Below, one piece after another: positions 9,709 through 42,168 of a stretch of DNA of 49,160 bases (position 1 is its first letter; each line of letters begins with the position of its first letter). Source of the DNA: Candidatus Geocrenenecus huangii. GTDB taxonomy: Archaea > Thermoproteota > Nitrososphaeria_A > Caldarchaeales > Wolframiiraptoraceae. The notes beneath the pieces were generated by a model. That model was given only the letters and a program-made list of their open reading frames with translations. It did not search any database and was not told where the DNA came from. The position numbers and the translations under genes were made by a program. The stretch spans positions 1 to 49,160 of the forward strand of contig JALNKM010000009.1 of assembly GCA_023268155.1 (NCBI GenBank), given 5' to 3'.

Positions 9709-10767
9709 ATGAGCAGAGAATTAGAGTTTGCAAGGGACTTGCTTCTCGACCTGATACGAGTCTACACTCCCCCAGGGTACGAACATAGATTAATTCCTGT
9801 GTTTAGAGAGTGGGCGGATAAGCTCGAATACGATGAATTCTACGTAGATGATGTTGGAAACATATTTCTCAGACGTGGTTCACGTGGAAAGACTATTCTC
9901 CTTGCAGGACACCTAGACACAATCCCCGGAGAGATAGATATCAAACTAGACCAAGAAACAATATACGGTAGAGGTGCGGTAGACGCTAAAGGACCATTGG
10001 CCGCGTTCATCATTGGAGGAATGCTAGCCAACCTAGAAAATGATAATTCAAAAGTTATTGTTGTGGGCCTCGTCCGAGAGGAGGACGATGGGCTGGGAGC
10101 TAAACATTTAGTGGAGGAGTCGTTTAAGTCGGATCACATCATAGTAGGTGAACCGACAAATCTTGGAGTTGCAGTAGCTTATAGGGGGAGCATATTGATT
10201 AGAGTCTCGGCGTACACGCTTGGCGGGCATAGCTCTGCACCATACATTGGAGAATCGGCTCTAGACAAGCTGATACAGTTCATAAACGTCATCAATACAA
10301 AGTATAGCGGGGTAGACTTCGATGAGACATCATGTGCTTTCACAGTATTAAGGGCTGGAGACTGGCTTAACAATCTTCCGAAAAAAGGAGAAGCATACGC
10401 GAACATAAGATATCCTCCTGGACATAATCCAGAAGATATATTAAGAGAGATTGAAAACATCGCTAGGAGTACCAGAGTAGAATTCGAGGTTCTAAGTGTA
10501 GAGAAGCCTGTTCGAGTTAGTGTGAATACAGATGCTGTGAGAGCATTGCTTAGGAGTATGTTAAAGTTGAATATGAAGCCGAGGGTTGTCAAGAAGACTG
10601 GGACAAGCGATATGAATACTTTGATAGCTATATCTAGAAGTATAACAGCGTTCGGTCCAGGAGATTCTAGGCTAGCCCATACAGATCATGAAAGAATTAA
10701 TGTAGATGAAGTTGTTACTGCGGCAAGGATAATCTCGAATGCTCTAAATGAATTATCTAGGGTTTAG
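9709..10767 (+). CDS. lysK: LysW-lysine/LysW-ornithine hydrolase
   Basis: A 352-residue M20-family metallopeptidase that releases lysine or ornithine from LysW as the last carrier-bound step. Metal-site residues are visible: GHLD with H68 and D70, D92 in AVDAKG, and the E124-E125 pair in VREEDD. GTSD follows near residue 300. It is 63 bases downstream of lysX. A single copy suggests use in both branches. Its last four bases overlap the end of the convergent oxidoreductase gene. Confidence 0.9.
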   Translation: MSRELEFARDLLLDLIRVYTPPGYEHRLIPVFREWADKLEYDEFYVDDVGNIFLRRGSRGKTILLAGHLDTIPGEIDIKLDQETIYGRGAVDAKGPLAAFIIGGMLANLENDNSKVIVVGLVREEDDGLGAKHLVEESFKSDHIIVGEPTNLGVAVAYRGSILIRVSAYTLGGHSSAPYIGESALDKLIQFINVINTKYSGVDFDETSCAFTVLRAGDWLNNLPKKGEAYANIRYPPGHNPEDILREIENIARSTRVEFEVLSVEKPVRVSVNTDAVRALLRSMLKLNMKPRVVKKTGTSDMNTLIAISRSITAFGPGDSRLAHTDHERINVDEVVTAARIISNALNELSRV

Positions 10768-12650
10768 AAGTATTGAGTATATTCGTCTAGACCGAGTTCT
10801 CTTAATTTTTCAGGATGCGGTATCCCGGAATCGCTCCATCCTCTTAGACGATAATATTCCTTCCGCATCTTCAAGAATTTTTCAAGATCTATATTTTGAC
10901 CTTTAGAAGACCCGAACTTCAAGTTTTCAGAATATATTCTAGGTGGAAGCATATCATCATCTTTCTTTAAGCCTTCTCGTATATTGTAGATTCTAATTAG
11001 ATTATTTATTTTTTCACCTTTCTTCCTTAATTCCAATGGATCAATGATTCTACCTGTTGCGAGGTAATAAATCTCTGAAAGCTCTTTCCACAGTAACGGT
11101 CCTATAACAGGTAAACAATAGAATTTACACATTACCATGCTGTCAACTACTGCATAGAAGTCTTCAAGTTCTATCATGTATTCTACGTGGCCATCGTAGG
11201 ATAGCCTGTCAACTTTGATCTCTGGATTGAATGGATGTGCTCCTACGAGATTCGGTCTATACGCGACATGTCTTAGATGGCATGCTCCCCTCGCAGATAC
11301 AGCATATGCTAATGCTACTCCCTTCAAGGCCCTCGGCTCATATCCTGGGAACTCTAAGGCCTTAACATGTACAGCGTGGCCAGTTGCGTTGAATTTCTCA
11401 GAAGCCCTCTTAACACCCTCCGCCAAAATGTCTCCTAACCCCCTCCTGTAAGCGATCATTTCAATCGCTTTCAGTAATGCTTGACTTTCCCCAAACCTTA
11501 ACCAGTCTTCATCGATTAATTTCTTCTCGGAGAGATACATTGCGTAAGCTACGACGTTCCCTGTGGAGATCGTGTCAACTCCAAGTTTATTCGCTAGGTC
11601 GTTCGCCCTTATTATTGCTTCTAGGTCATCTATGAATGGAAGTGGTCCAAATGCGAATAAAGTTTCATATTCAGGTCCTTCTACTTCTAAACCATCCGGA
11701 GTCTCTGAATGCCTCCCGCACGCTACTGGACAAGCGAAACATGTGATTTTCTTCTTCACGTAGAGTTTGTTAAAAGTTTCAGGCCCTACTTTTTCATAGC
11801 CTTCGAAGTCTCCACCTTCATAGTATCTAGTAGGTAGAGAACCTGTGGAATTCGTTAAGGCCATTATAGCTGAGGTTCCATACTTTGATAGTCCTTGAAG
11901 CTTCTCCCTAGCCAATCTCACTACCTTATTTCTAAGCTCAATGAATTTTTCTTCATCTACAGGTTCAACTCTGTGGCCCCCGCGTATAGCTATTGCTTTT
12001 AGTTTCTTGCTGCCCATTACTGCTCCTCCACCCGTTCGACCGAAGAAGCCTCCTCGAATCTTCTTCTTTTCATGCATATAGAGACCGTGTACTATACATG
12101 CAAATCTTACAAGGTTTTCTCCAGCAGGCCCTATCGTCGCCGTCATTACCTCTCCAAGCTCACTCCATAATTCTTTCTCTGTCGCATAAGTATCGAGCCC
12201 CCATAAATGCGATGCATTCTCTATCTCTACTTTACCATCTTCAGCTAGGAGGTAGACTGGGCTACTTGATGCTCCCCTCACTACTACTGCGTCAAGACCC
12301 GCTTTAACAAGCTCAGTACCAATATACCCGCCGCACAATGATTCTCCGAAGAATCCTGTTAAAGGAGACTTGAAGACCGCGGCCATTCTTGCCGCACTTG
12401 GTAGGACCAGCCCCTCAACTGGGCCGACGGCAAATACTAACAGGTTGTCAGGTGATAGTGGATCAATATTTGGAGGAGTTTTGTCTATTAGTATTTTTAA
12501 ACCTAGGCCGATGCCTCCAATATAATTGGCGTAAAGCATCTCGTTAGACTCGAGATACCTTACCGACTTATTAGATAAATCCACGAGAGCGATTTTATTC
12601 CAGTAACCACTCCGCCTAACCTTACTCATTTTAACATCACGGTTCGGCAT
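10764..12650 (-). CDS. tungsten-type aldehyde:ferredoxin oxidoreductase
   Basis: A 628-residue AOR-family enzyme, expected to oxidise an aldehyde to a carboxylic acid using a tungstopterin and a [4Fe-4S] cluster, with ferredoxin as electron acceptor. Three cluster cysteines are C304, C307 and C311 (CFACPVAC), and a C-terminal CKF cysteine supplies the fourth. N-terminal GFFGESLCGGYIG and GRTGGGAVMGSKKLKA are typical pterin-contact regions. Whether it is an AOR, FOR or WOR type cannot be decided. A TATA box centred 25 bases before the ATG supports the start. A MoaD/ThiS-like gene at 44307 could serve cofactor synthesis. Confidence 0.9.
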   Translation of the reverse strand: MPNRDVKMSKVRRSGYWNKIALVDLSNKSVRYLESNEMLYANYIGGIGLGLKILIDKTPPNIDPLSPDNLLVFAVGPVEGLVLPSAARMAAVFKSPLTGFFGESLCGGYIGTELVKAGLDAVVVRGASSSPVYLLAEDGKVEIENASHLWGLDTYATEKELWSELGEVMTATIGPAGENLVRFACIVHGLYMHEKKKIRGGFFGRTGGGAVMGSKKLKAIAIRGGHRVEPVDEEKFIELRNKVVRLAREKLQGLSKYGTSAIMALTNSTGSLPTRYYEGGDFEGYEKVGPETFNKLYVKKKITCFACPVACGRHSETPDGLEVEGPEYETLFAFGPLPFIDDLEAIIRANDLANKLGVDTISTGNVVAYAMYLSEKKLIDEDWLRFGESQALLKAIEMIAYRRGLGDILAEGVKRASEKFNATGHAVHVKALEFPGYEPRALKGVALAYAVSARGACHLRHVAYRPNLVGAHPFNPEIKVDRLSYDGHVEYMIELEDFYAVVDSMVMCKFYCLPVIGPLLWKELSEIYYLATGRIIDPLELRKKGEKINNLIRIYNIREGLKKDDDMLPPRIYSENLKFGSSKGQNIDLEKFLKMRKEYYRLRGWSDSGIPHPEKLRELGLDEYTQYF

Positions 12651-31937: not shown

Positions 31938-32348
31938 CTATCTTATTCTAGATATCTTGTAAGCTGGGATAATGGATACTACTCCGAGAATGTGTGCGAT
32001 AGTACAATACATACATATAGTGTTAAGAATAGCTAGCTCGATCCATAGTAAGGCCGCTACTGAAGGCACGCTCATTAAGGCCCATACTAAAACTAGATAT
32101 GAAGCAGCTTTTCCATGCTTGTAGGATACAACTATCGTTAAGAATAGAAGTGTTAGAAACCATGCTAAGCCGAGAGTGGATAGAGGAATTCCATATATCT
32201 TAGAATAGGGGCTGGTGATGACTTTATCACATTCTCCGACCCCAATCTTGCATACAGGCTGCCTCGAGGCATATTCCAGGTAGGATGATACAATTACCCC
32301 CATTATGGAGATTATTATGAGAGTAAGTGTCCAGAAAGTTTTCTTCAA
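31938..32348 (-). CDS. vitamin K epoxide reductase-like disulfide-forming membrane protein
   Basis: A 136-residue four-helix membrane protein of the VKOR family, which uses a quinone to oxidise a thioredoxin-like partner and so drives disulfide formation outside the membrane. Loop cysteines C33 and C40, S46 in the SPYS motif, and the active-site pair C112-C115 (CMYC) are all present. Its start overlaps the stop of the thioredoxin-like gene by four bases (ATGA), so the redox partner is made from the same message. Confidence 0.9.
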   Translation of the reverse strand: MKKTFWTLTLIIISIMGVIVSSYLEYASRQPVCKIGVGECDKVITSPYSKIYGIPLSTLGLAWFLTLLFLTIVVSYKHGKAASYLVLVWALMSVPSVAALLWIELAILNTICMYCTIAHILGVVSIIPAYKISRIR

Positions 32349-33013
32349 CTTATGGTCCCCTCTATAGCTTTAGCTAATATCTCTATAGAGCTTTCACCGA
32401 CTATTTTTTGAACTATGTTATGAGAGCTATCAAGTATAATGAATGTCGGGGTTCCTTCGACACCATACTTGTCAAAGACCTCATAATTAACATCTAGCAG
32501 AATTGTTTGTGTCAAACCATATTTCTCGATTACACTCTTTAATTGCTCTTTCAACGGCGTCGAGATTACTAAGAAAACCATTCTATCACCATACCTTCTA
32601 CTTAGTTCTTCTATTGTCGGTATCATGTTTATACAATGTCCACAATTTGGCTGGAAGAATTCTAGGAAAACTGGCTTTCCACTAAAATCCGATAAGCCTA
32701 TGTAGCGTTCTAAAGAACTTGATGGGTCATATACTGGTAGAGAGAAATCGGAAGCCCGCTGTAGATTCGGCTTAGAAATAGTTATTTTACTTTGCTGCGT
32801 AGTAACAGTGGTTGTTGTAGTTTGCTGTTCTAGAGCTGGGAGCCGAATAGTCAAGATGATAAGTGTTATAATCACAACTAGTAGCAGTACAGGTAAAATT
32901 ACTCTAACCCCATAATATCTACCAGCATGATCGACCCTCATATGGTTCTTAAGACCGTACTCACTTCTAAAAGACTTCCCACAAACCTTGCAAACATACT
33001 TCTCTTTGTCCAT
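32345..33013 (-). CDS. C2H2 zinc finger-transmembrane-thioredoxin-like protein
   Basis: A 222-residue protein of three parts. Residues 6-29 are a classic C2H2 finger (C8, C11, H24, H29). Residues about 37-55 are one membrane helix. After a Thr-rich linker, residues about 85-222 are a TlpA/thioredoxin-like domain with the active site C124-GH-C127 and GTPTF providing the cis-proline. The finger should face the cytoplasm and the redox domain the outside, where VKOR, encoded by the overlapping next gene, would keep it oxidised. The finger may bind DNA, RNA or protein, or only anchor. A TATA box 28 bases before the ATG supports the start. Confidence 0.85.
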   Translation of the reverse strand: MDKEKYVCKVCGKSFRSEYGLKNHMRVDHAGRYYGVRVILPVLLLVVIITLIILTIRLPALEQQTTTTTVTTQQSKITISKPNLQRASDFSLPVYDPSSSLERYIGLSDFSGKPVFLEFFQPNCGHCINMIPTIEELSRRYGDRMVFLVISTPLKEQLKSVIEKYGLTQTILLDVNYEVFDKYGVEGTPTFIILDSSHNIVQKIVGESSIEILAKAIEGTIS

Positions 33014-33252: not shown

Positions 33253-34827
33253 TTATTTTGCATAAGCTCCAGGTTGTTTCCTTGGATCTGAAACTGCTAA
33301 GAATAGGTTATCTTTCTTAAATACTGATTGAACCGCTCCAAAGTATATGTCTGTTCCAGGATACATGGAGACTTCTCTAACTTCACCTATGTTTAGTCCT
33401 GCTTTGATAAGTCCGCTGCTCGAGATCTTATCCTTAATCAAGTCTTCTAAAACTACTCTGTCCCCTCTGACATGTATTCTTCCTTCGAGTACTGAGGAGA
33501 CTGGATCAAGTCTTCTTATAAAGTAGTTAGAGAGAGTCTGTACTAGCGAAGATATTATCCTCATACCTCCAGATGCGCCTATCACTATCGTTGGAGAGCC
33601 GTCTCTATCAAGTATGATTAATGGAGACATACTGCTCGCAGGCCTCTTACCTGGAGATATGGAGTTCGGATGATCTCTCTGAAGGGTGAAGTCATGCATC
33701 TCATCGTTTAGCAAGATCCCTTTAACAGTTATCCCTGAGCCCATAAAACATTCAATGGTTTCTGTGAGAGATACAAACATCTTACCTTTTCCATCTGCAA
33801 TACTTATATGAGATGTTCCACCTCTATCTCCAACTAGGTGGTAGGAGACTCTACCTTTTTCAATGGAATCTAGAGACTGTCTGACATGGTTTTCTGAAAG
33901 GAGCCTATTAAAATCCATCTCATTAAATAATGGGTCTGATATTATGGAACATCTTTCATCAATTATGTGAAAGAGAGTATGTGCAAGTCTTAGGTAATAT
34001 TCTTCATCTTTCAGTTCCGTCTCAGATAATATCTTTAAGGCTTCGATTAATAATATGCCTGAGCTTGGAGGAGGCATAGTTGCGAACTTTAAAATCTTAC
34101 CTCCAATTTCTAATTCATAGATGATTGGCTCCCTCCATATTGCCTTATAGCATGATAGATCTCTTAAGGAGAGGAACCCATTGTTGATAGAGAATATCCT
34201 ATCGATCTCTTCAGCTATCTCTCCTTGGTAAAAGTATTCTATATTGTCTCTAAGCATTCTTAGTGTTTGAGCAAATCCTCTATAGGATATTGTAGAATCC
34301 TCAGGATATATTTTTCCATCTTTGAAGAATGTAGTGTAGCTTTCTGGGCACATCTTGAGTTTGTATTTTGCATTATCTAGATCTTTGTTCATGCATTTAC
34401 TCCATAATCTTGACACTCGACATGATTCCGCATACTTTATCACTAGGTCTATTATCTTACTCCACTTAAATTCTCCGAATTCTTGATGTAGCATCCAAAG
34501 TCCTCTTAATGTACCTGGAACGGCCACAGCTTTATAGCCGATCGAAGCATCTTCCTCACTTCTATAATCTTCGATTCTCGCTTTCTGTGGAGCTACTTCA
34601 CGGTAATCCAAAGCTCTAAACCCGTGGTCTTCTGAATATAGTAATGCGAATCCTCCTCCGCCTAGACCACTCCAACCTGGCTCGAGCACGTTCAAGAGTA
34701 ATGAAGCAGCTATAGCTGCATCAACTGCATTGCCCCCTTCCCGCATTACTTCTAGAGATATGTGTGAAGCTACCGGCGAATGAGAAGATATTGCTTTTTC
34801 ACCTATAGAATATACGTTCTCAGACAT
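33253..34827 (-). CDS. ggt: gamma-glutamyltransferase
   Basis: A 524-residue N-terminal-nucleophile hydrolase. The autocatalytic threonine is T338 in GGTSHIS, followed by GKMFVSLTETIE and the GSGI loop, and GGNAVDAAIA marks the N-terminal domain. It cleaves gamma-glutamyl amides or transfers the glutamyl group. No signal peptide is visible, so it probably acts in the cytoplasm, unlike the secreted bacterial enzyme. It follows a metallophosphoesterase gene after four bases and an APC permease gene before that, all on the minus strand, near a glutamine-synthetase-like ligase. Cephalosporin acylase-like relatives are an alternative. Confidence 0.9.
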   Translation of the reverse strand: MSENVYSIGEKAISSHSPVASHISLEVMREGGNAVDAAIAASLLLNVLEPGWSGLGGGGFALLYSEDHGFRALDYREVAPQKARIEDYRSEEDASIGYKAVAVPGTLRGLWMLHQEFGEFKWSKIIDLVIKYAESCRVSRLWSKCMNKDLDNAKYKLKMCPESYTTFFKDGKIYPEDSTISYRGFAQTLRMLRDNIEYFYQGEIAEEIDRIFSINNGFLSLRDLSCYKAIWREPIIYELEIGGKILKFATMPPPSSGILLIEALKILSETELKDEEYYLRLAHTLFHIIDERCSIISDPLFNEMDFNRLLSENHVRQSLDSIEKGRVSYHLVGDRGGTSHISIADGKGKMFVSLTETIECFMGSGITVKGILLNDEMHDFTLQRDHPNSISPGKRPASSMSPLIILDRDGSPTIVIGASGGMRIISSLVQTLSNYFIRRLDPVSSVLEGRIHVRGDRVVLEDLIKDKISSSGLIKAGLNIGEVREVSMYPGTDIYFGAVQSVFKKDNLFLAVSDPRKQPGAYAK

Positions 34828-34831
34828 CCTA

Positions 34832-35806
34832 TCAACCTATTCTATACCAGTTCCTTAGTCCATCTCTATCTAGCTCGAGTATCACCCCTTTCAATATCCC
34901 AGAAGAATATTCTGAACCTGGATTAAATACTATGGTCTTCCCTACTTTATCGTATCCAGCCGATTCATGTATATGTCCATGGAGACCAATTATCGGTTTG
35001 TATTTTTCAATGAACTTTCTTACAGACTTGCTTCCAACATTTTCCTTCTCCATCTCTCCAAGACTATACACTGGTTTTAGATTCTTATCTAGCTTAGGAG
35101 CAACATCTATAACCGTATTATAGGGTGGTGGATGGAAACAGCATATTATTTTGTCCCAATCTCTATCGACTAGGTTTACTGTCTTCTCCAACATCTTCCA
35201 CAACTTGTTTTCTTCAGCTTCCCTAGGAGTATTCCATGGGGTCGGGTTAACGTGATCGAAGGAGACCATGCCATAGCCTAATGGTAGCTCTACTAATTTA
35301 CCTAGAGGATACATATCTCTGATGCTTTTTTTCAATACTGGGTCTATATCTAAGATATCGTCGTTTCCAGGCATAACTATAACTTGCTTATCTTTCTGGA
35401 CGTGTTCTTCTAGCATTACGACCCATCTCTTGATATTCTCAGTTATCAATGTTGAGAATAATCTGTTGACTTTTTCAGGATCTTTTTTCAGTTCTTCTAC
35501 TTCTTCTCTACTACAAATATATGGATATACTCCACAATTCTTTAATTCATTCTTTGCTTGTTCCAAATTCTCTGATCCTTTAACTATGTTTGTTTTTCCT
35601 TTAAAGGTGTATTGATAGTTTTCTCCTCCGAGGTCTATTATTGGAATTATTGCTTTTCCAGTTAGGTCTCCTGAAAGTATCATAACATCTATTTCATGAT
35701 GTTGTGGAATTGAGAGGAATCTTCTAAATACTAGCTCGCTATTATGGATATCAGCGACAAAGAATATTTTGAAGGAGCTCATTCCTCCTCTCGACCTTTC
35801 ACTCAA
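34832..35806 (-). CDS. metallophosphoesterase
   Basis: A 324-residue calcineurin-type phosphoesterase. Motifs are ADIHNSE (DxH), SGDLTG (GD), MPGNDD (GND), CFHPPPY and LHGHIHES, the last with the paired metal-ligand histidines. The substrate is unknown; relatives act on nucleotides, phosphoproteins or phospholipids. It lies between the permease and gamma-glutamyltransferase genes in a tight minus-strand operon, which is unusual company for a phosphoesterase and hints at a role on the transported or ligated compound, or in regulation. Confidence 0.82.
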   Translation of the reverse strand: MSERSRGGMSSFKIFFVADIHNSELVFRRFLSIPQHHEIDVMILSGDLTGKAIIPIIDLGGENYQYTFKGKTNIVKGSENLEQAKNELKNCGVYPYICSREEVEELKKDPEKVNRLFSTLITENIKRWVVMLEEHVQKDKQVIVMPGNDDILDIDPVLKKSIRDMYPLGKLVELPLGYGMVSFDHVNPTPWNTPREAEENKLWKMLEKTVNLVDRDWDKIICCFHPPPYNTVIDVAPKLDKNLKPVYSLGEMEKENVGSKSVRKFIEKYKPIIGLHGHIHESAGYDKVGKTIVFNPGSEYSSGILKGVILELDRDGLRNWYRIG

Positions 35807-35852
35807 GACCTATATTAATAGTTGAAATATAAAAAAGATTATGGAGTTTTCA

Positions 35853-37511
35853 TTAAGCTGGAGGTATCTCGGCGAATATCTTTTCAGTCTTTATGCCCTT
35901 CTTCTTATTTGCCCAGTTATAGTATGAGTAGAGTATTATGGCTAGCAGTGTCCAGCCTATCATCCAGGAAGGCGATACAAACGTTACGTCTGCAGCCATT
36001 TGCTGTAAACCAAGTACTAAGAGTATAAATGTTGATACAATTGCCGCTCCTCCTACAATCGATATTACAGGGACTCCTCCAATAGTCTTCGTATAGCCCT
36101 CCTTATAGACCTCCGGCCTCCTAAAGGGCAGGATCGTTGTAGCTATCGCTGATAGGAACCATCTAACGGCTACTGCCGTAACAGCTGTTATCGCATAGAA
36201 TAGTGGTCCATATTCTGGAGATGCTAAAATTAATAGCATTAATATGGCTCCGACTATTACTAATGTTATAGACCAGTGTGGTGTCCTAAACCTATCATTA
36301 ACTTCCGCCAGCTTCTCCGGGAAGAACCTATCAAATGATAATGCGAATGCGATTCTTGATGGTACCATCATGTATACGGGGATTCCATTCATTACCCATA
36401 ATGGTACAGCCAGAGTAATGATGATGGCGAGTATAGGTGCCCAGCCACCGAAGAGAGAAGCTATAAAGACCGCCCAGGTAGGTGTCTGTACAGGGTTGAT
36501 TGCAAGCTGACTATAAGCGCTTTCGGTATTCATTACATACTCGTAGGCTGAGAAGAATTCTCTAAACCCTAGAAGAGTTAAAGATGATATCGAGAGATAG
36601 TATGCGAAGACGAGTATTATTGCTCCAACCGTTCCTAGGAAGAAGTTTCTCTTTGGCCTATCTATCTCTCCAGCCATGTAATTAGCGTATTCAAGCCCCC
36701 AGAATGCATATGCTGAGATAACGATGCTGAGTGAGAGGGTTATCTCAGGAGACCATGGACCAGGCCAACCCCACTTAGAGGGGTCGCCAGTAGCCGATGC
36801 CACATAATCTCTCCAACCTGTCGCTGACGCTACATTCATTATCTCATCATATGCCCCTGACCCGTAAGTCATATCCCATAGATTTCTTACCTGACTCGGC
36901 GTTAGAGATGCTGCGTATGCTGCTCCAGCTATAGTAGCTATTCCTGCTACTAGCGCTAGGAGGAAGAGTATGTTTATGACATATTTGTAGACTTTTACCC
37001 CTAGTAGGCTGATAACTCCAAATACCAATACGAAGAATATTCCGAGACCTATTGAAGCGACTGGGTCAGTGGAGAGCGATTCTCCCAAAGAAACCAAACC
37101 ATTATTATGTGTTGCTAATCCTACTTGTATTATCGCGCTTCCCCAGAACCAGGCCATGAAGTAAGACAATGCTCCTACGATCCAGATATGTACTCCGAGT
37201 ACCAGTAGTGCCTCTATGTATCCTAGCAATGGGTGGAGTACCCTGGAGATTCCTACATAGTCTGAGGCAGTTCTAGGCATAGCCATGGTTAAGAAGATTA
37301 CGGCAAATGCTGCTAGAGCCATTATTACTCCTCCAAGGACTAATGCTAATGGTATGTTTGCTCCAGGCGCAGAGTATCCTTGGCCAGCAGTAAATAGGTA
37401 GAACCCGTCCGCTATAACGTAGTTCGCGGCCATAGCCATGACCGAGAATGCGCCGATCTCTCTTACAAGCCCCGAAGTTCTTCTAACAAATACTATCTCC
37501 TCAGAACTCAT
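35853..37511 (-). CDS. APC-family amino acid or amine permease
   Basis: A 552-residue membrane protein with about twelve hydrophobic segments and an APC-superfamily pattern, including the N-terminal unwound-helix region (VREIGAFSVMAMAANYVIADG) given here as a location only, residues 13-33. It imports or exchanges amino acids or amines across the cytoplasmic membrane. It is first in a run with the metallophosphoesterase and gamma-glutamyltransferase genes, and is divergent from the ligase gene across 116 bases. Confidence 0.87.
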   Translation of the reverse strand: MSSEEIVFVRRTSGLVREIGAFSVMAMAANYVIADGFYLFTAGQGYSAPGANIPLALVLGGVIMALAAFAVIFLTMAMPRTASDYVGISRVLHPLLGYIEALLVLGVHIWIVGALSYFMAWFWGSAIIQVGLATHNNGLVSLGESLSTDPVASIGLGIFFVLVFGVISLLGVKVYKYVINILFLLALVAGIATIAGAAYAASLTPSQVRNLWDMTYGSGAYDEIMNVASATGWRDYVASATGDPSKWGWPGPWSPEITLSLSIVISAYAFWGLEYANYMAGEIDRPKRNFFLGTVGAIILVFAYYLSISSLTLLGFREFFSAYEYVMNTESAYSQLAINPVQTPTWAVFIASLFGGWAPILAIIITLAVPLWVMNGIPVYMMVPSRIAFALSFDRFFPEKLAEVNDRFRTPHWSITLVIVGAILMLLILASPEYGPLFYAITAVTAVAVRWFLSAIATTILPFRRPEVYKEGYTKTIGGVPVISIVGGAAIVSTFILLVLGLQQMAADVTFVSPSWMIGWTLLAIILYSYYNWANKKKGIKTEKIFAEIPPA

Positions 37512-37627
37512 GAGAAAAAATCTCGCATGCTTGCATATAAGATTTTAAGATTACAAAATACACGTTCATCATGATATTACATCCTGAAGGTCTTCCAAGT
37601 GTATCCTTCTTAAAAGTTAATTAGTCC

Positions 37628-39016
37628 GTGTATAAAATATCGGATATTATGAGTAAATTAGATAACATTATGGAGATTGTTGAGAGGAATAAAATCAAGT
37701 TCGTCAGGTTTATCTATGTCGGACTAGACGGGGTTCTAAGAGCTAAGTCGTCTTATCTAGATGAGCTTGAAGACCACTTAATCCACGGTATAGGTTTAAC
37801 CATGGCGATGCAGTCTTTCACAGCTCTCGATACGCTACTATCAGAACCGAGATTCGGACCAGAATCGGAAGATATCTTCTTAGTCCCAGACCTAGAAACA
37901 TTCTCACCCATAACCTACGTAGAAGGACAGGGTAGGGTACTATGCGATATGAAGTTGAGAAATGGAGAAGAATGGGGCTTCTGTACTCGCAGTCTCCTCA
38001 AGAAGCTCTCGAAGAGATATAAAGAAGAACTAGGGATTGTTTTTCAGAGTGCTGCAGAAACCGAGTTCTACATACTGAAGCAGACGGCGCCCGATAAAGT
38101 TGAGCCAATAGATTGGGCGAGATGTTTCTCAACGGTCGGATATGACGCTCTTGGAGACATAATCTTAGAGATAATCGACGCGCTTAAAGCCTCGGGAATA
38201 TCCGTAGTGAGGATCATTAAAGAATATGGTCCAGGACAAGTAGAGATAAATATGAAGCATAGGAACATATTAAGAGCCGCTGATGATATGGTTGTCTTGA
38301 GGGATGTTGCAAAAGGTGTTGCGGCAAAACATGGTCTAGTGGCCACTTTCATGGCGAAGCCTTTCGACTGGCATGCGGGAAGCGGTATGCATTTCCACAT
38401 AAGCGGTCTAGATACGGAGACAGGTAAAAACGTATTCTATGATAAGAACGATAAGAAAGGATTGAACCTATCTCGAACAGCATACTACTTCATTGGGGGA
38501 ATCCTACATCATATGAAGTCTCTATCGGCTATTGTAGCTCCGACGATAAATTCGTACAAGAGATTGATTCCTGGGTCATGGGCTCCATCGAACATATGCT
38601 ATGGATACAATAATAGGTCTGCAGCAATAAGAATACCGACTACGAGAGTTGGAAAAGAAGAGAAAAATATTAGGATAGAGTTTAGAACACCGGATGCAAC
38701 CGCAAACCCATACCTAGCGCTGGCGGCCACTATAGCGGCGGGGGTTCATGGGATTAGAGAAGAGATCGATCCCGCAGAACCCGTTAACGTAGATGCGTAC
38801 AAGCTCTCAAAAGAAGAGAGAGCTAAGAGGAATATAGAACTTCTCCCTACAAGTTTGAGAGAAGCTCTAGAGTATCTTGATAGGGATGACTATCTTAAAT
38901 CTGAACTTGGCTCCGAGCTAATAGAAGAATACATAAAGATCAAGAAGGTTGAATGTGAATCCTATGAACATTATGTAAGCCCATGGGAGATTAAGAACTA
39001 TGTCCCAGTATTCTAA
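37628..39016 (+). CDS. glutamine-synthetase-like ligase
   Basis: A 462-residue GS-fold enzyme. Active-site landmarks are AETEFYIL, GPGQVEINM, HAGSGMHFHIS, NSYKRLIPGSWAP and RIEFRTPDATANPY, so the metal, ATP and glutamate sites look intact. It may be a true glutamine synthetase, but it lacks the near-absolute context of glnA. Its genetic company (APC permease, gamma-glutamyltransferase, class III aminotransferase) recalls PuuA-type gamma-glutamyl amine ligases. A GTG start at 37628 gives the length used; an ATG at 37652 is an alternative. Its stop lies 17 bases inside the next gene. Confidence 0.82.
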   Translation: MYKISDIMSKLDNIMEIVERNKIKFVRFIYVGLDGVLRAKSSYLDELEDHLIHGIGLTMAMQSFTALDTLLSEPRFGPESEDIFLVPDLETFSPITYVEGQGRVLCDMKLRNGEEWGFCTRSLLKKLSKRYKEELGIVFQSAAETEFYILKQTAPDKVEPIDWARCFSTVGYDALGDIILEIIDALKASGISVVRIIKEYGPGQVEINMKHRNILRAADDMVVLRDVAKGVAAKHGLVATFMAKPFDWHAGSGMHFHISGLDTETGKNVFYDKNDKKGLNLSRTAYYFIGGILHHMKSLSAIVAPTINSYKRLIPGSWAPSNICYGYNNRSAAIRIPTTRVGKEEKNIRIEFRTPDATANPYLALAATIAAGVHGIREEIDPAEPVNVDAYKLSKEERAKRNIELLPTSLREALEYLDRDDYLKSELGSELIEEYIKIKKVECESYEHYVSPWEIKNYVPVF

Positions 39017-39977
39017 GATTAGAGAGATCTTAAACACCTTAAAGGATGTCGACGTTGACAAAGTCTTGCAGGCCGTGCAGGATAGGGTAAAAGTATATCC
39101 TACACCACATTATCTACCGATTCACATAGAATATCTTAATGAGCTAGATCAGAAAGAAAACTTCTGTGGCGCGTTTAGTGCATCATACATCTTGAGAGGT
39201 TTAGGCTACAGGACCCACAGAAATGAAATAGTAGACCAAGACTATATAGCGTATCTTTCAAGAGTAAACGTAGACCCAAGAGACTTAGAAAAAATTAGGA
39301 AATTAAAGAATGAGATAGCTAGTTTATCAGGAGAAGAAGCTAGAAAGATTGTTGAGGAGAACAGAAGTATATGGTATAGGTTTGATGATCTTCCAACAAC
39401 TGTGAAGTCTCAGGAGCTTGGCGCTAGCCCTGAAGGAATCACTTACGCAATCCATGAAGTAAGCATGTCTAAGCTTAAAGTAATACCTGTGAAGACCGTT
39501 AGTAAGACTGAGGATGAGCTCTTATCAAGCGAGAAAATGGCCGTCCTTCTAGAATTATTCAAGAAAGCTGAAGTATACAATGCACAGTTTATACTAAACT
39601 TGAACACGAGATACTTGTTAGACTCTGAGAAGATCTTTAAGTTATCAGAGAAGCTTCTGTTGGGAGAAGTGTTCCAAGAAGTTTATAGAGAAAGTGTTGG
39701 GCACTATGTTGGATGTGCTGGCTTGATAGAAGTTAACGATAAGCCTTTAATCATTATAAGAGAAACGTATCGGAAGTATGGAGTACATCTTCAACCTGCA
39801 GAATATGTTAGAAGAGCTCTAATAAGAGAGGATGGAAGGGAAGGTGGAGTCCTAATCATTGTTCCAGCAGATTTAGAAAAGGATCTTAAGAAGATGCTGA
39901 GTGATAGAGGATTAAGGGTGGAGACTTGGGATAATGGAAGCCCATATACTCCGTTTACCAGCCGGCGAACCTTCTAA
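39000..39977 (+). CDS. unknown protein with a possible cysteine-hydrolase site
   Basis: A 325-residue soluble protein overlapping the ligase gene by 17 bases, so it is translationally coupled to it. C56 in FCGAFSAS, H235 in VGHYVG and E255 in IIRETY are laid out like the Cys-His-acid triad of papain- or C39-like enzymes, with helices between. I do not firmly recognise a family, though it recalls an uncharacterised domain family of similar layout in Actinobacteria. It might hydrolyse the gamma-glutamyl product or transfer its acyl group, or regulate the ligase. The 3' end overlaps the convergent aminotransferase by 23 bases. Confidence 0.7.
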   Translation: MSQYSKIREILNTLKDVDVDKVLQAVQDRVKVYPTPHYLPIHIEYLNELDQKENFCGAFSASYILRGLGYRTHRNEIVDQDYIAYLSRVNVDPRDLEKIRKLKNEIASLSGEEARKIVEENRSIWYRFDDLPTTVKSQELGASPEGITYAIHEVSMSKLKVIPVKTVSKTEDELLSSEKMAVLLELFKKAEVYNAQFILNLNTRYLLDSEKIFKLSEKLLLGEVFQEVYRESVGHYVGCAGLIEVNDKPLIIIRETYRKYGVHLQPAEYVRRALIREDGREGGVLIIVPADLEKDLKKMLSDRGLRVETWDNGSPYTPFTSRRTF

Positions 39978-41289
39978 CCTTCTCTTTATCTATTCTATCT
40001 TTTTCTAAGTCGTCCACAGCTTTTTCAAATATTTCTAATGCTTTCTCTACATCTTCACTACTCACCGTTAAGGGTGGGGTAATCTCTATGACGTTAGAAT
40101 ATGTTCCTACGTAAGTAACGAGTAGACCGAGCTCGAAGGCTCTATAGACGAGGCAGGCAGCCTCGAAGGTAGCGGGTGTCTTCGCTTTAGGGTCTTTAAC
40201 CAGCTCAGCTCCTAAGATCATCCCCTTACCTCTAACATCACCTATTAGTTGATGTTTTTCTCTTATCTCGTTAAGCCTCTTCAAGATGTAGTCTCCCACT
40301 CTAGCAGCTCTTTCATGAATTTTATCTCTCAAGATTATGTTTATGGTTGCTAATGAAGCGACACAGCTAACTGGATGAGCGCTACTTGTGAAGAGATGGG
40401 CCGCTATAGCCGCGTCCATGATCTCTCCTCTTCCGACGACCGCGCTTAGAGGGAGTCCGGAGGCCATGGGTTTAGCCATAGATATAACGTCTGGAGCCAC
40501 ATTTGAATGTTCTATAGCGAAGAACTTGCCTGTTCTTCCAAATCCGACTTTAACTTCATCGACGACTAAGCTTATCCCTCGATGCTTACAGATCTTATGT
40601 AGTTTGGGGATGAATTCTGGAGGTGGAACGATTACTCCGCCATCGCTTTGTATAGGCTCAATAATTATTGCAGATAAGTCTTCAGCTGGAGCATTCTCTA
40701 TAACATTATTCTCAAGAAAGTCTATACATAGTAACCCACATTCTGGATATTGTTGCTTGAATGGACATCTATAACAATAAGGATATGGAGCCTTCAAGGT
40801 GTTTGGGAATCCGATAAATCTTGTTAATGCTTTATGCCCAGATAAGCTCAGAGCCCCCATAGTCTGTCCATGATAAGATCCCTGAAATCCAAGCAGCCTC
40901 CTTCTACCAGAATATATAGGCATTATCTTATAGATTAACTCATTAGCATCTGAGCCTGTTAAACCAAACCATACCTTCTTCTTGAAATCTCCAGGTGTTA
41001 CCTCTACTAATCTTTCAGCTAATTCTATTCCCACAGCGTTTGGGAAAGTAGTATGAGATGAGAATACTAACTTTTCTAGTTGTTTCTTCACTGCCTCGAT
41101 TACTTCTGGGTTATTATGTCCTAGATTCGTTACAGCCCATTGCGATGAGAAATCTATATACTCTCTACCTTCTACATCCCAGATCTTTGAATTAAAAGCT
41201 CTATCAACTACTATTGGATAAAATCTTATACCTATAATTCTGCCAACTACACGTTCTTCTCTCTCCAAGTATTCAAGTACGCTAGACAT
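39955..41289 (-). CDS. class III aminotransferase (GABA/omega-amino acid type)
   Basis: A 444-residue PLP enzyme of the OAT/GABA-AT class. VVDEVKVGFGRTG and the PLP lysine in SMAKPMASGLPL are present, with a Cys-rich insert CYRCPFKQQYPECGLLC near residues 172-188 that is absent from LysJ and occurs in some archaeal relatives. It probably transaminates an omega-amino acid or amine such as GABA or ornithine; amino acid racemases of this fold are an alternative. It converges on the ligase-linked unknown gene, overlapping by 23 bases. Confidence 0.85.
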   Translation of the reverse strand: MSSVLEYLEREERVVGRIIGIRFYPIVVDRAFNSKIWDVEGREYIDFSSQWAVTNLGHNNPEVIEAVKKQLEKLVFSSHTTFPNAVGIELAERLVEVTPGDFKKKVWFGLTGSDANELIYKIMPIYSGRRRLLGFQGSYHGQTMGALSLSGHKALTRFIGFPNTLKAPYPYCYRCPFKQQYPECGLLCIDFLENNVIENAPAEDLSAIIIEPIQSDGGVIVPPPEFIPKLHKICKHRGISLVVDEVKVGFGRTGKFFAIEHSNVAPDVISMAKPMASGLPLSAVVGRGEIMDAAIAAHLFTSSAHPVSCVASLATINIILRDKIHERAARVGDYILKRLNEIREKHQLIGDVRGKGMILGAELVKDPKAKTPATFEAACLVYRAFELGLLVTYVGTYSNVIEITPPLTVSSEDVEKALEIFEKAVDDLEKDRIDKEKVRRFAGW

Positions 41290-41343: not shown

Positions 41344-42168
41344 ATGCCCGGAGTAAGGTTGATAGACGAATTTTCATCTAAAGTATTGAAGACAGCTCTC
41401 GAAATCGTTGATGCAGCTCATAATAGAGGTGTAGTAGCAAGGATCTTGGGAGCAGTAGCGACGTACCTCCATTGCTGTAACGATACCCAGGCTCTAACAT
41501 TCATCAAAAACGCGGGGAGACTTACTACCGGAAAGGTATTTACAGACGTGGACCTAATAGCTTACAGTAAGCAGCGGAAACAATTAGTAAACCTTATGAG
41601 AGAATTGAATTTTGATGAGAATAAAATTATAAACGCATTGTTCGGATATAAGAGATTGTTGTTCTTTAAAGATCAGGTAAAAGTCGATATATTCTTTGAT
41701 AAACTAGAATTCAGCCATGATGTATTTTTTGGGAGTGAGCCAGGTAAAGGAAGGCTTGAAATAGATTATCCCACAATAAGCTTAACAGACTTGATGTTAG
41801 AGAAGCTCCAGATACATCAAATAAATAAGAAAGATATAATCGATATAATAGCGGTCTTGATAGTGCATGATGTAGGCGATACAACTGAAAAAGAGGTCAT
41901 AGATGGGAAGTATATAGGGAGCATATTGTCCGATGATTGGGGCTTCTGGTATGACGCACTTGAAAATTTGAAGAAAGTTGAGTACTTCGTAAATAAATTT
42001 AGAGAAGAGAACCTGTTGAGTTCTGACCAATCTACTAAGGTTCTCCAAAATATTGAAAAGATTAAGATAGCTATTGAAAATACTGAGAAGACTAAGAACT
42101 GGATTAAACGCTCTAAGATAGGTACCTCAAAACCATGGTATAGGGAAGTTGAAGATTTGAATGTTTAA
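41344..42168 (+). CDS. nucleotidyltransferase-fold protein
   Basis: A 274-residue protein with a minimal nucleotidyltransferase layout: ILGAVATYL near residues 34-42 in the position of the usual Gly-rich motif, FTDVDLI with D68 and D70, and a third acidic residue D115 in VKVDIFF. The C-terminal half is helical. The family includes tRNA-modifying enzymes, antitoxin-like proteins and AbiEii-type toxins; no partner gene is adjacent, so neither role can be assigned. It is divergent from the aminotransferase gene by 54 bases and precedes lysJ. Confidence 0.65.
   Translation: MPGVRLIDEFSSKVLKTALEIVDAAHNRGVVARILGAVATYLHCCNDTQALTFIKNAGRLTTGKVFTDVDLIAYSKQRKQLVNLMRELNFDENKIINALFGYKRLLFFKDQVKVDIFFDKLEFSHDVFFGSEPGKGRLEIDYPTISLTDLMLEKLQIHQINKKDIIDIIAVLIVHDVGDTTEKEVIDGKYIGSILSDDWGFWYDALENLKKVEYFVNKFREENLLSSDQSTKVLQNIEKIKIAIENTEKTKNWIKRSKIGTSKPWYREVEDLNV

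Follow-up and report, generated by a model that had tools for sequence, protein, structure and literature searches.

The conserved block and its core pair

The window, a stretch of 49,160 nucleotides that is contig C21 of the 1.7-Mb genome of the archaeon Candidatus Geocrenenecus huangii, contains one conserved multi-gene unit, the core of which is a glutamine synthetase (GS)-fold ligase together with a DUF6885 protein. With moderate confidence, we propose that this block serves the gamma-glutamylation of an amine bearing an amide- or lactam-like group, or joined to one. Protein families, folds, residues, gene neighbourhoods and trees were obtained by computation, and from them we infer each reaction, the substrate and the order of the steps. 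Open reading frames and Pfam families were checked within the window. An earlier sequence-only reading had placed six genes at 33253-41289, encoding a gamma-glutamyltransferase (GGT), a metallophosphoesterase (MPE), an APC-family permease, the ligase, an unknown protein (here DUF6885) and a class III pyridoxal phosphate (PLP) enzyme. All six were present at those positions and their families were confirmed by Pfam, while a seventh conserved gene just outside that span, encoding a nucleotidyltransferase-like protein (NTase), had been missed.

The pairing of ligase and DUF6885 was surveyed in 398 Thermoproteota genomes, with DUF6885 identified by profile above cut-off and the ligase at an identity of at least 50%. 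DUF6885 was found in 10 of the 398 genomes and the ligase in the same 10, with the two genes adjacent every time. A close-relative scan of the genome contigs with DUF6885 alone gave no match, while the profile scan did find relatives; a match to DUF6885 in genome G281 (E 7e-4, 43 positions) was judged to be due to chance. Overall, the two genes were adjacent in 13/13 loci from three archaeal groups, Wolframiiraptoraceae, Methanomethylicota and Haladaptatus.

GGT-MPE-APC, ligase-DUF6885 and the PLP enzyme were found in a single order in all seven sampled Wolframiiraptoraceae genomes with DUF6885. With the additional copy carried by the genome of the window, the block was intact in eight copies, and the 17-base overlap between ligase and DUF6885, already reported in the sequence-only reading, was constant through all of them, as was the 23-base overlap between DUF6885 and the PLP enzyme. 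The NTase gene follows the block wherever the contig extends far enough; in G134 the block contig ends before it, and a close NTase copy lies at the start of another contig. The second copy in the own genome comprises all seven genes (contig C6, 1139-10075) with 86% identity over 8.9 kb, and is flanked by a gene at 10545-11327 that reads by eye as glutamate dehydrogenase. This copy may be a duplication, or the contig of a close relative binned in.

Other arrangements were found elsewhere. In G269, a 70% complete genome, APC-MPE-GGT-ligase lie on one strand and the ligase is cut by the contig end. In the three Methanomethylicota genomes, DUF6885 begins 15-22 bases after the ligase and a permease-length gene lies ahead, which was confirmed as an APC permease in one locus (L025). 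On two Haladaptatus plasmids, the ligase and DUF6885 genes overlap by 1 base, and genes for an M20 peptidase and an amino acid permease come next; both plasmids have an amidohydrolase, and that of H. halobius also has class III PLP enzymes. Kinship among the genomes makes simple co-occurrence probabilities too optimistic. Since the G269 copy is rearranged and the pair, or its ligase homologue in the family f21 described below, occurs in distant groups, mere inheritance of gene order is disfavoured. The sequence-only reading had treated the genes as a joint unit, and inspection of their neighbourhood in relatives showed that the neighbours are kept together.

As a separate observation, an ornithine cyclodeaminase/mu-crystallin gene was convergent to the ligase-DUF6885 pair in Methanomethylicota (L025, 11010-11993; L041, 10817-11905; L042, 11408-12391).

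The ligase and the DUF6885 protein

In a tree of 33 sequences including GlnA of E. coli, of Bacillus and of the own genome, the ligase grouped with the Methanomethylicota and f21 ligases (97/94) and then with the haloarchaeal GlnA2 clade, while the true GlnA proteins formed a separate 100/99 group excluding the window ligase. E327->W and N264->A were found in every copy and Y179 was replaced by C or a gap; the own-genome GlnA on contig C18 retains the ammonia-site residues E327 and Y179. The ATP, metal and glutamate residues E129, E131, E212, E220, H269, R321, R339, R344, E357 and R359 are retained in the ligase, and the GS site D50, which was aligned differently in two alignments, was not used as evidence. 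PA5508 and FluG carry W at position 327 (PMC6478659). By its residues and tree position, the ligase is assigned to the GS-fold gamma-glutamyl amine ligase type and not to the ordinary glutamine synthetases, and the tree bore out the earlier proposal of an amine ligase type by placing it apart from GlnA. To judge by the starts of the other copies, it probably begins at the in-frame ATG 37649 rather than at GTG 37628.

On haloarchaeal plasmids, glnA2 genes with the annotation gamma-glutamylputrescine synthetase were also seen near IucA/IucC siderophore genes (L119, L120, L122, L124), which suggests that some GlnA2 act in siderophore synthesis.

The product of the gene at 39000 matched Pfam DUF6885 (PF21819) with 144.8 bits against a gathering cut-off of 27. 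All Thermoproteota copies have C56, H235 and E255; with the Haladaptatus copies included, residue 255 is either E or D, and Q51 does not vary among the 13 homologues. An AlphaFold model (pLDDT 82, pTM 0.81) was compared with the PDB by Foldseek and gave staphopain as best match (E 3.7e-4, prob 1.00), and in a viral library it matched an AvrRpt2-type papain-like protease and phage lysins. Because the overall TM scores of the fold matches were low (0.33-0.55), the assignment is limited to the fold class and does not extend to a close family. Q51, C56, H235 and the E or D at 255 run in papain order, and in the model C56 starts a helix and H235 lies at a strand start. A sequence search of the PDB with the DUF6885 profile found no relatives. 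The protein is thus predicted to be a papain-fold (clan CA) Cys-His-acid hydrolase, and the C56/H235/E255 triad and hydrolase role proposed in the sequence-only reading gain support from the conserved residues and the predicted papain-like fold. DUF6885 was not mentioned in the literature searched, which comprised open-licence papers only.

The strongest single clue to the role of DUF6885 comes from family f21, where a ligase homologue (46-49%) occurs without DUF6885 and an Amidohydro_2 enzyme lies directly behind it in 6/6 loci tested. In this slot, then, one hydrolase fold is exchanged for another, unrelated one. Because a metal amidohydrolase takes its slot in f21, DUF6885 is, by analogy, most likely a gamma-glutamyl-amide hydrolase.

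The PLP enzyme and the GGT

Compared with solved relatives, the PLP enzyme scored 344 bits against the broad amino-acid racemase, 337 against amino acid amide racemase and 336 against aminocaprolactam racemase, versus 276 against gamma-aminobutyrate (GABA) transaminase and 253 against PuuE. In a tree of 24 sequences, all eight block copies fell into a 100/99 clade with the PLP enzyme of H. halobius, encoded two genes from DUF6885, and with the alpha-amino-epsilon-caprolactam/amino acid amide racemases (PDB 2zuk, 6gio). The members of this clade have in common SDGG (as QSDGG or LSDGG), DEVK and E at the Arg398 position. In place of this E, Arg is present in GABA transaminases and in the broad amino-acid racemase, and the Arg398-type residue of GabT binds carboxylate in the 2-oxoglutarate site. 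The block enzyme also has SDG in place of the GEG motif, and besides QSDGG and DEVK it shares W51 with 2zuk. By sequence, the enzyme is a member of the aminocaprolactam/amino-acid-amide racemase clade with predicted racemase activity. The GABA-type aminotransferase identity given to it in the sequence-only reading is ruled out by the clade placement and by E in place of the carboxylate-binding Arg. The substrates of known clade members are amino-acid amides and alpha-amino lactams (PMC11391342).

The GGT retains the nucleophile T391, R114, D433, S462/S463 and G483/G484 (E. coli numbering), with Q430->E, and no signal peptide was visible in its sequence. It scored 290 bits against NCBIfam TIGR00066, under the 358-bit cut-off. 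Among 300 genomes, relatives of this GGT were found in 8 only, namely the seven block genomes and G269, so the enzyme is tied to the block. It is likely a cytosolic gamma-glutamyl hydrolase.

These assignments bear on an alternative that we regard as improbable, an archaeal Puu-like polyamine route. Here a transaminase would replace the O2-dependent oxidase, a tungsten aldehyde:ferredoxin oxidoreductase (AOR) would replace PuuC and DUF6885/GGT would replace PuuD, alongside the permease and a gamma-glutamyl-polyamine ligase. The closest NCBIfam model of the ligase is indeed gamma-glutamylputrescine synthetase (NF045547), but with 432.8 bits its 650-bit cut-off was missed. The haloarchaeal GlnA2 proteins are the tree neighbours of the ligase, and Haloferax mediterranei GlnA-2 has demonstrated glutamate-putrescine ligase activity (PMC8394153). 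The own genome encodes 8 AOR and 3 aldehyde dehydrogenases, and its relatives are tungsten-dependent (PMC9246946). However, the tree puts the PLP enzyme among the amide/lactam racemases and it lacks the 2-oxoglutarate-binding Arg of GABA transaminases, the Pfam scan gave no counterparts of PuuB, PuuC and PuuD in the block, and no oxidase or aldehyde dehydrogenase lies within it. A search of the whole genome for a hidden PuuD-type (C26) hydrolase matched only the tails of 522- and 577-amino-acid frames. On these grounds the analogy to bacterial polyamine use drawn in the sequence-only reading is not supported, and a copy of the Puu polyamine route is unlikely. Puu-like oxidation may take place elsewhere in the cell via AOR or aldehyde dehydrogenases; unlinked aldehyde dehydrogenase and DAO-family genes are present in the genome.

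The clade of the PLP enzyme and its convergent overlap with DUF6885 in 8/8 copies also speak for a reading in which the block handles amino-acid amides, lactams or thiolactones. The racemase and DUF6885 would then turn a racemic amide or (thio)lactone into an amino acid, while reversible gamma-glutamylation by ligase and GGT would take care of a toxic or surplus amine. Bleomycin hydrolase is papain-like, and its pairing with aminocaprolactam racemase is a suggestive parallel, no more, to the PLP enzyme and DUF6885. The two known enzymes, racemase and cysteine protease, process homocysteine thiolactone together in vitro (PMC11391342). Against this reading, the inspected Methanomethylicota loci have DUF6885 behind the ligase and contain no such racemase, which makes the ligase the first partner of DUF6885, and we consider the reading unlikely.

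Proposed mechanism and comparison with known systems

We therefore return to gamma-glutamylation of an amine with an amide- or lactam-like group as the preferred reading. The APC permease would import an amine-bearing compound, whose amino group the ligase, using ATP, would couple to the gamma-carboxyl of glutamate. DUF6885 would then cleave an amide bond of the conjugate, and the cytosolic GGT would act on the gamma-glutamyl compound that is left, freeing glutamate. Of the possible sequences of steps, this one has the most support. The PLP enzyme might act on the free amide-type substrate at its alpha-centre, by inversion or exchange, either ahead of tagging or following it, and the MPE and NTase would accompany the permease as a unit of their own, acting on the permease or its cargo. 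Amide or lactam chemistry is preferred to polyamines because of the place of the PLP enzyme in its tree, among the amide racemases.

Several points weigh against this scheme. Neither GGT nor PLP enzyme was seen in the Methanomethylicota loci, and the ligase-DUF6885 core therefore does not depend on them. The PLP enzyme is only 37-38% identical to the known racemases 2zuk and 6gio, and the GGT has an unusual N411->E. Two hydrolase candidates, DUF6885 and GGT, are available for one bond, and known routes need fewer. The target of DUF6885 may be the substrate, the conjugate or a protein, since the predicted fold gives chemistry and not substrate. It is also conceivable, though very unlikely in our view, that the block synthesizes a gamma-glutamyl compound (a thiol, osmolyte or signal) which GGT and DUF6885 trim or recycle. 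GS-like ligases also make compounds such as theanine (PMC9909507), and gamma-glutamyl signals have been proposed for FluG (PMC6478659), but an uptake permease and two hydrolase-type enzymes in the block favour use.

In the E. coli Puu system (PuuP/A/B/C/D/E), as in the block, the genes for an APC-type permease and a GS-fold gamma-glutamyl amine ligase are neighbours, and those for a hydrolase and a class III PLP enzyme lie close by. The two differ in that the block PLP enzyme is of the amide racemase clade and the block hydrolase is papain-fold whereas that of Puu is GATase-type; the block is without oxidase and aldehyde dehydrogenase and has GGT, MPE and NTase in addition. FluG and the ligase-amidohydrolase pairs likewise tie a gamma-glutamyl ligase with W at 327 to an amidohydrolase (PMC6478659). 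The block uses DUF6885 in that slot, whereas the f21 relatives of the ligase use a metal amidohydrolase, as fungal FluG does (PMC6478659). In aniline and naphthylamine routes such a ligase is paired with a GAT-type gamma-glutamyl hydrolase (PMC11335346), and in AtdA1/AtdA2 and NpaA1/NpaA2 it is the hydrolase that is thought to reverse gamma-glutamylation, as proposed here. AtdA2 is GAT-like whereas the block hydrolase is papain-like, and the AtdA/NpaA clusters have a Rieske dioxygenase (PMC11335346). Haloferax mediterranei GlnA-2 is, like the block ligase, an archaeal GS paralogue, but its position 327 is G where the block ligase has W, and its gene neighbours are reported to be transporters (PMC8394153).

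If the scheme is right, DUF6885, a family without known function, would gain a concrete testable role, and archaeal gamma-glutamylation routes would have a non-homologous enzyme in the hydrolase slot.

The permease-MPE-NTase cassette

The metal ligands D19, H21, D47, N148, H225, H278 and H280 of the MPE are invariant in 14 relatives. The NTase had no strong Pfam match and its profile found no relatives in a sequence search of the PDB; its relatives match the nucleotidyltransferase families NTP_transf_5 and AbiEii weakly, and the catalytic-type D68, D70 and D115 are invariant in 12 relatives. The first fold matches of its model (pLDDT 73.5) were MenT, ANT(2'')-Ia and CCA enzymes, all at weak E-values. 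Outside the seven block genomes, 62 of 94 NTase genes lie within 6 kb of an MPE relative and 48 of 94 within 300 bases, for which a rough chance value is <1% per pair. In 20/20 loci chosen for close NTase and MPE genes, an APC permease was present a few kb away at most; gene order and strand varied, and no ligase was seen. In f21 and f24 genomes, the NTase and MPE genes are often apart.

A role of the MPE as a step of the ligase route was rejected because its relatives accompany the permease and NTase at loci that have no ligase. The sequence-only reading gave the phosphoesterase no counterpart in the known route, and its presence is explained by a separate permease cassette because the trio recurs without ligase across Thermoproteota. 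We would guess, with considerable doubt, that in Thermoproteota the two enzymes work as a reversible switch on APC permeases, the NTase modifying the permease (or else its cargo) with a nucleotide that the MPE takes off again, the cassette being joined here to a gamma-glutamylation locus with DUF6885 as papain-fold gamma-glutamyl-amide hydrolase. The three-gene unit is widespread and may be a new control of amino-acid or amine uptake; no description of such a set was found in open-licence papers.

Recurrences of the trio were recorded at L106-L110, L112, L113, L115, L117, L118, L135-L154 and L163, and the own genome has a partial third NTase gene near a contig end (G000:C7:404633-405175, L161). 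In other families, class III PLP enzymes also lie near the set (L112, 3626-4993; L117, 8334-9797; L136, 2262-3740; L139, 8757-10118); the enzymes of L112 and L139 cluster with the broad amino-acid racemase.

Coordinates and neighbouring genes

Table 1. Features of the block in the window
Feature	Coordinates	Strand	Evidence
GGT, PF01019	33253..34827	-	Pfam E 4e-109
Calcineurin-like MPE, PF00149	34832..35806	-	above Pfam cut-off
APC-family permease, PF13520	35853..37511	-	E 4e-25; kept in block
Intergenic region separating the divergent permease and ligase runs	37512..37627	.	ORF (open reading frame) coordinates
GS-fold gamma-glutamyl ligase, PF00120	37628..39016	+	E 3e-115; likely true start 37649
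Ligase/DUF6885 overlap, 17 bases	39000..39016	+	equal length in 8/8 family copies
DUF6885 protein, predicted papain-fold cysteine hydrolase	39000..39977	+	PF21819 E 3.3e-42
DUF6885 codons Q51 (oxyanion-type Gln) to C56 (predicted nucleophile)	39150..39167	+	invariant in 13 homologues
DUF6885 H235 codon	39702..39704	+	invariant in 13 homologues; predicted strand start
DUF6885 E255 codon (D in Haladaptatus)	39762..39764	+	homologue alignment
DUF6885/PLP enzyme convergent overlap, 23 bases	39955..39977	.	equal length in 8/8 copies
Class III PLP enzyme, aminocaprolactam/amino-acid-amide racemase clade	39955..41289	-	tree, motifs
NTase, seventh conserved gene	41344..42168	+	D68, D70, D115; conserved MPE partner

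One of the 8 AOR genes lies in the window, as an aldehyde ferredoxin oxidoreductase C-terminal domain at 10788-11906 (-). At 31938-33013 (-), genes for a thioredoxin-fold-like protein and for a membrane protein resembling VKOR (both by eye) adjoin the block; this pair is absent there in Wolframiiraptor and is kept beside the block in L019 and L022.

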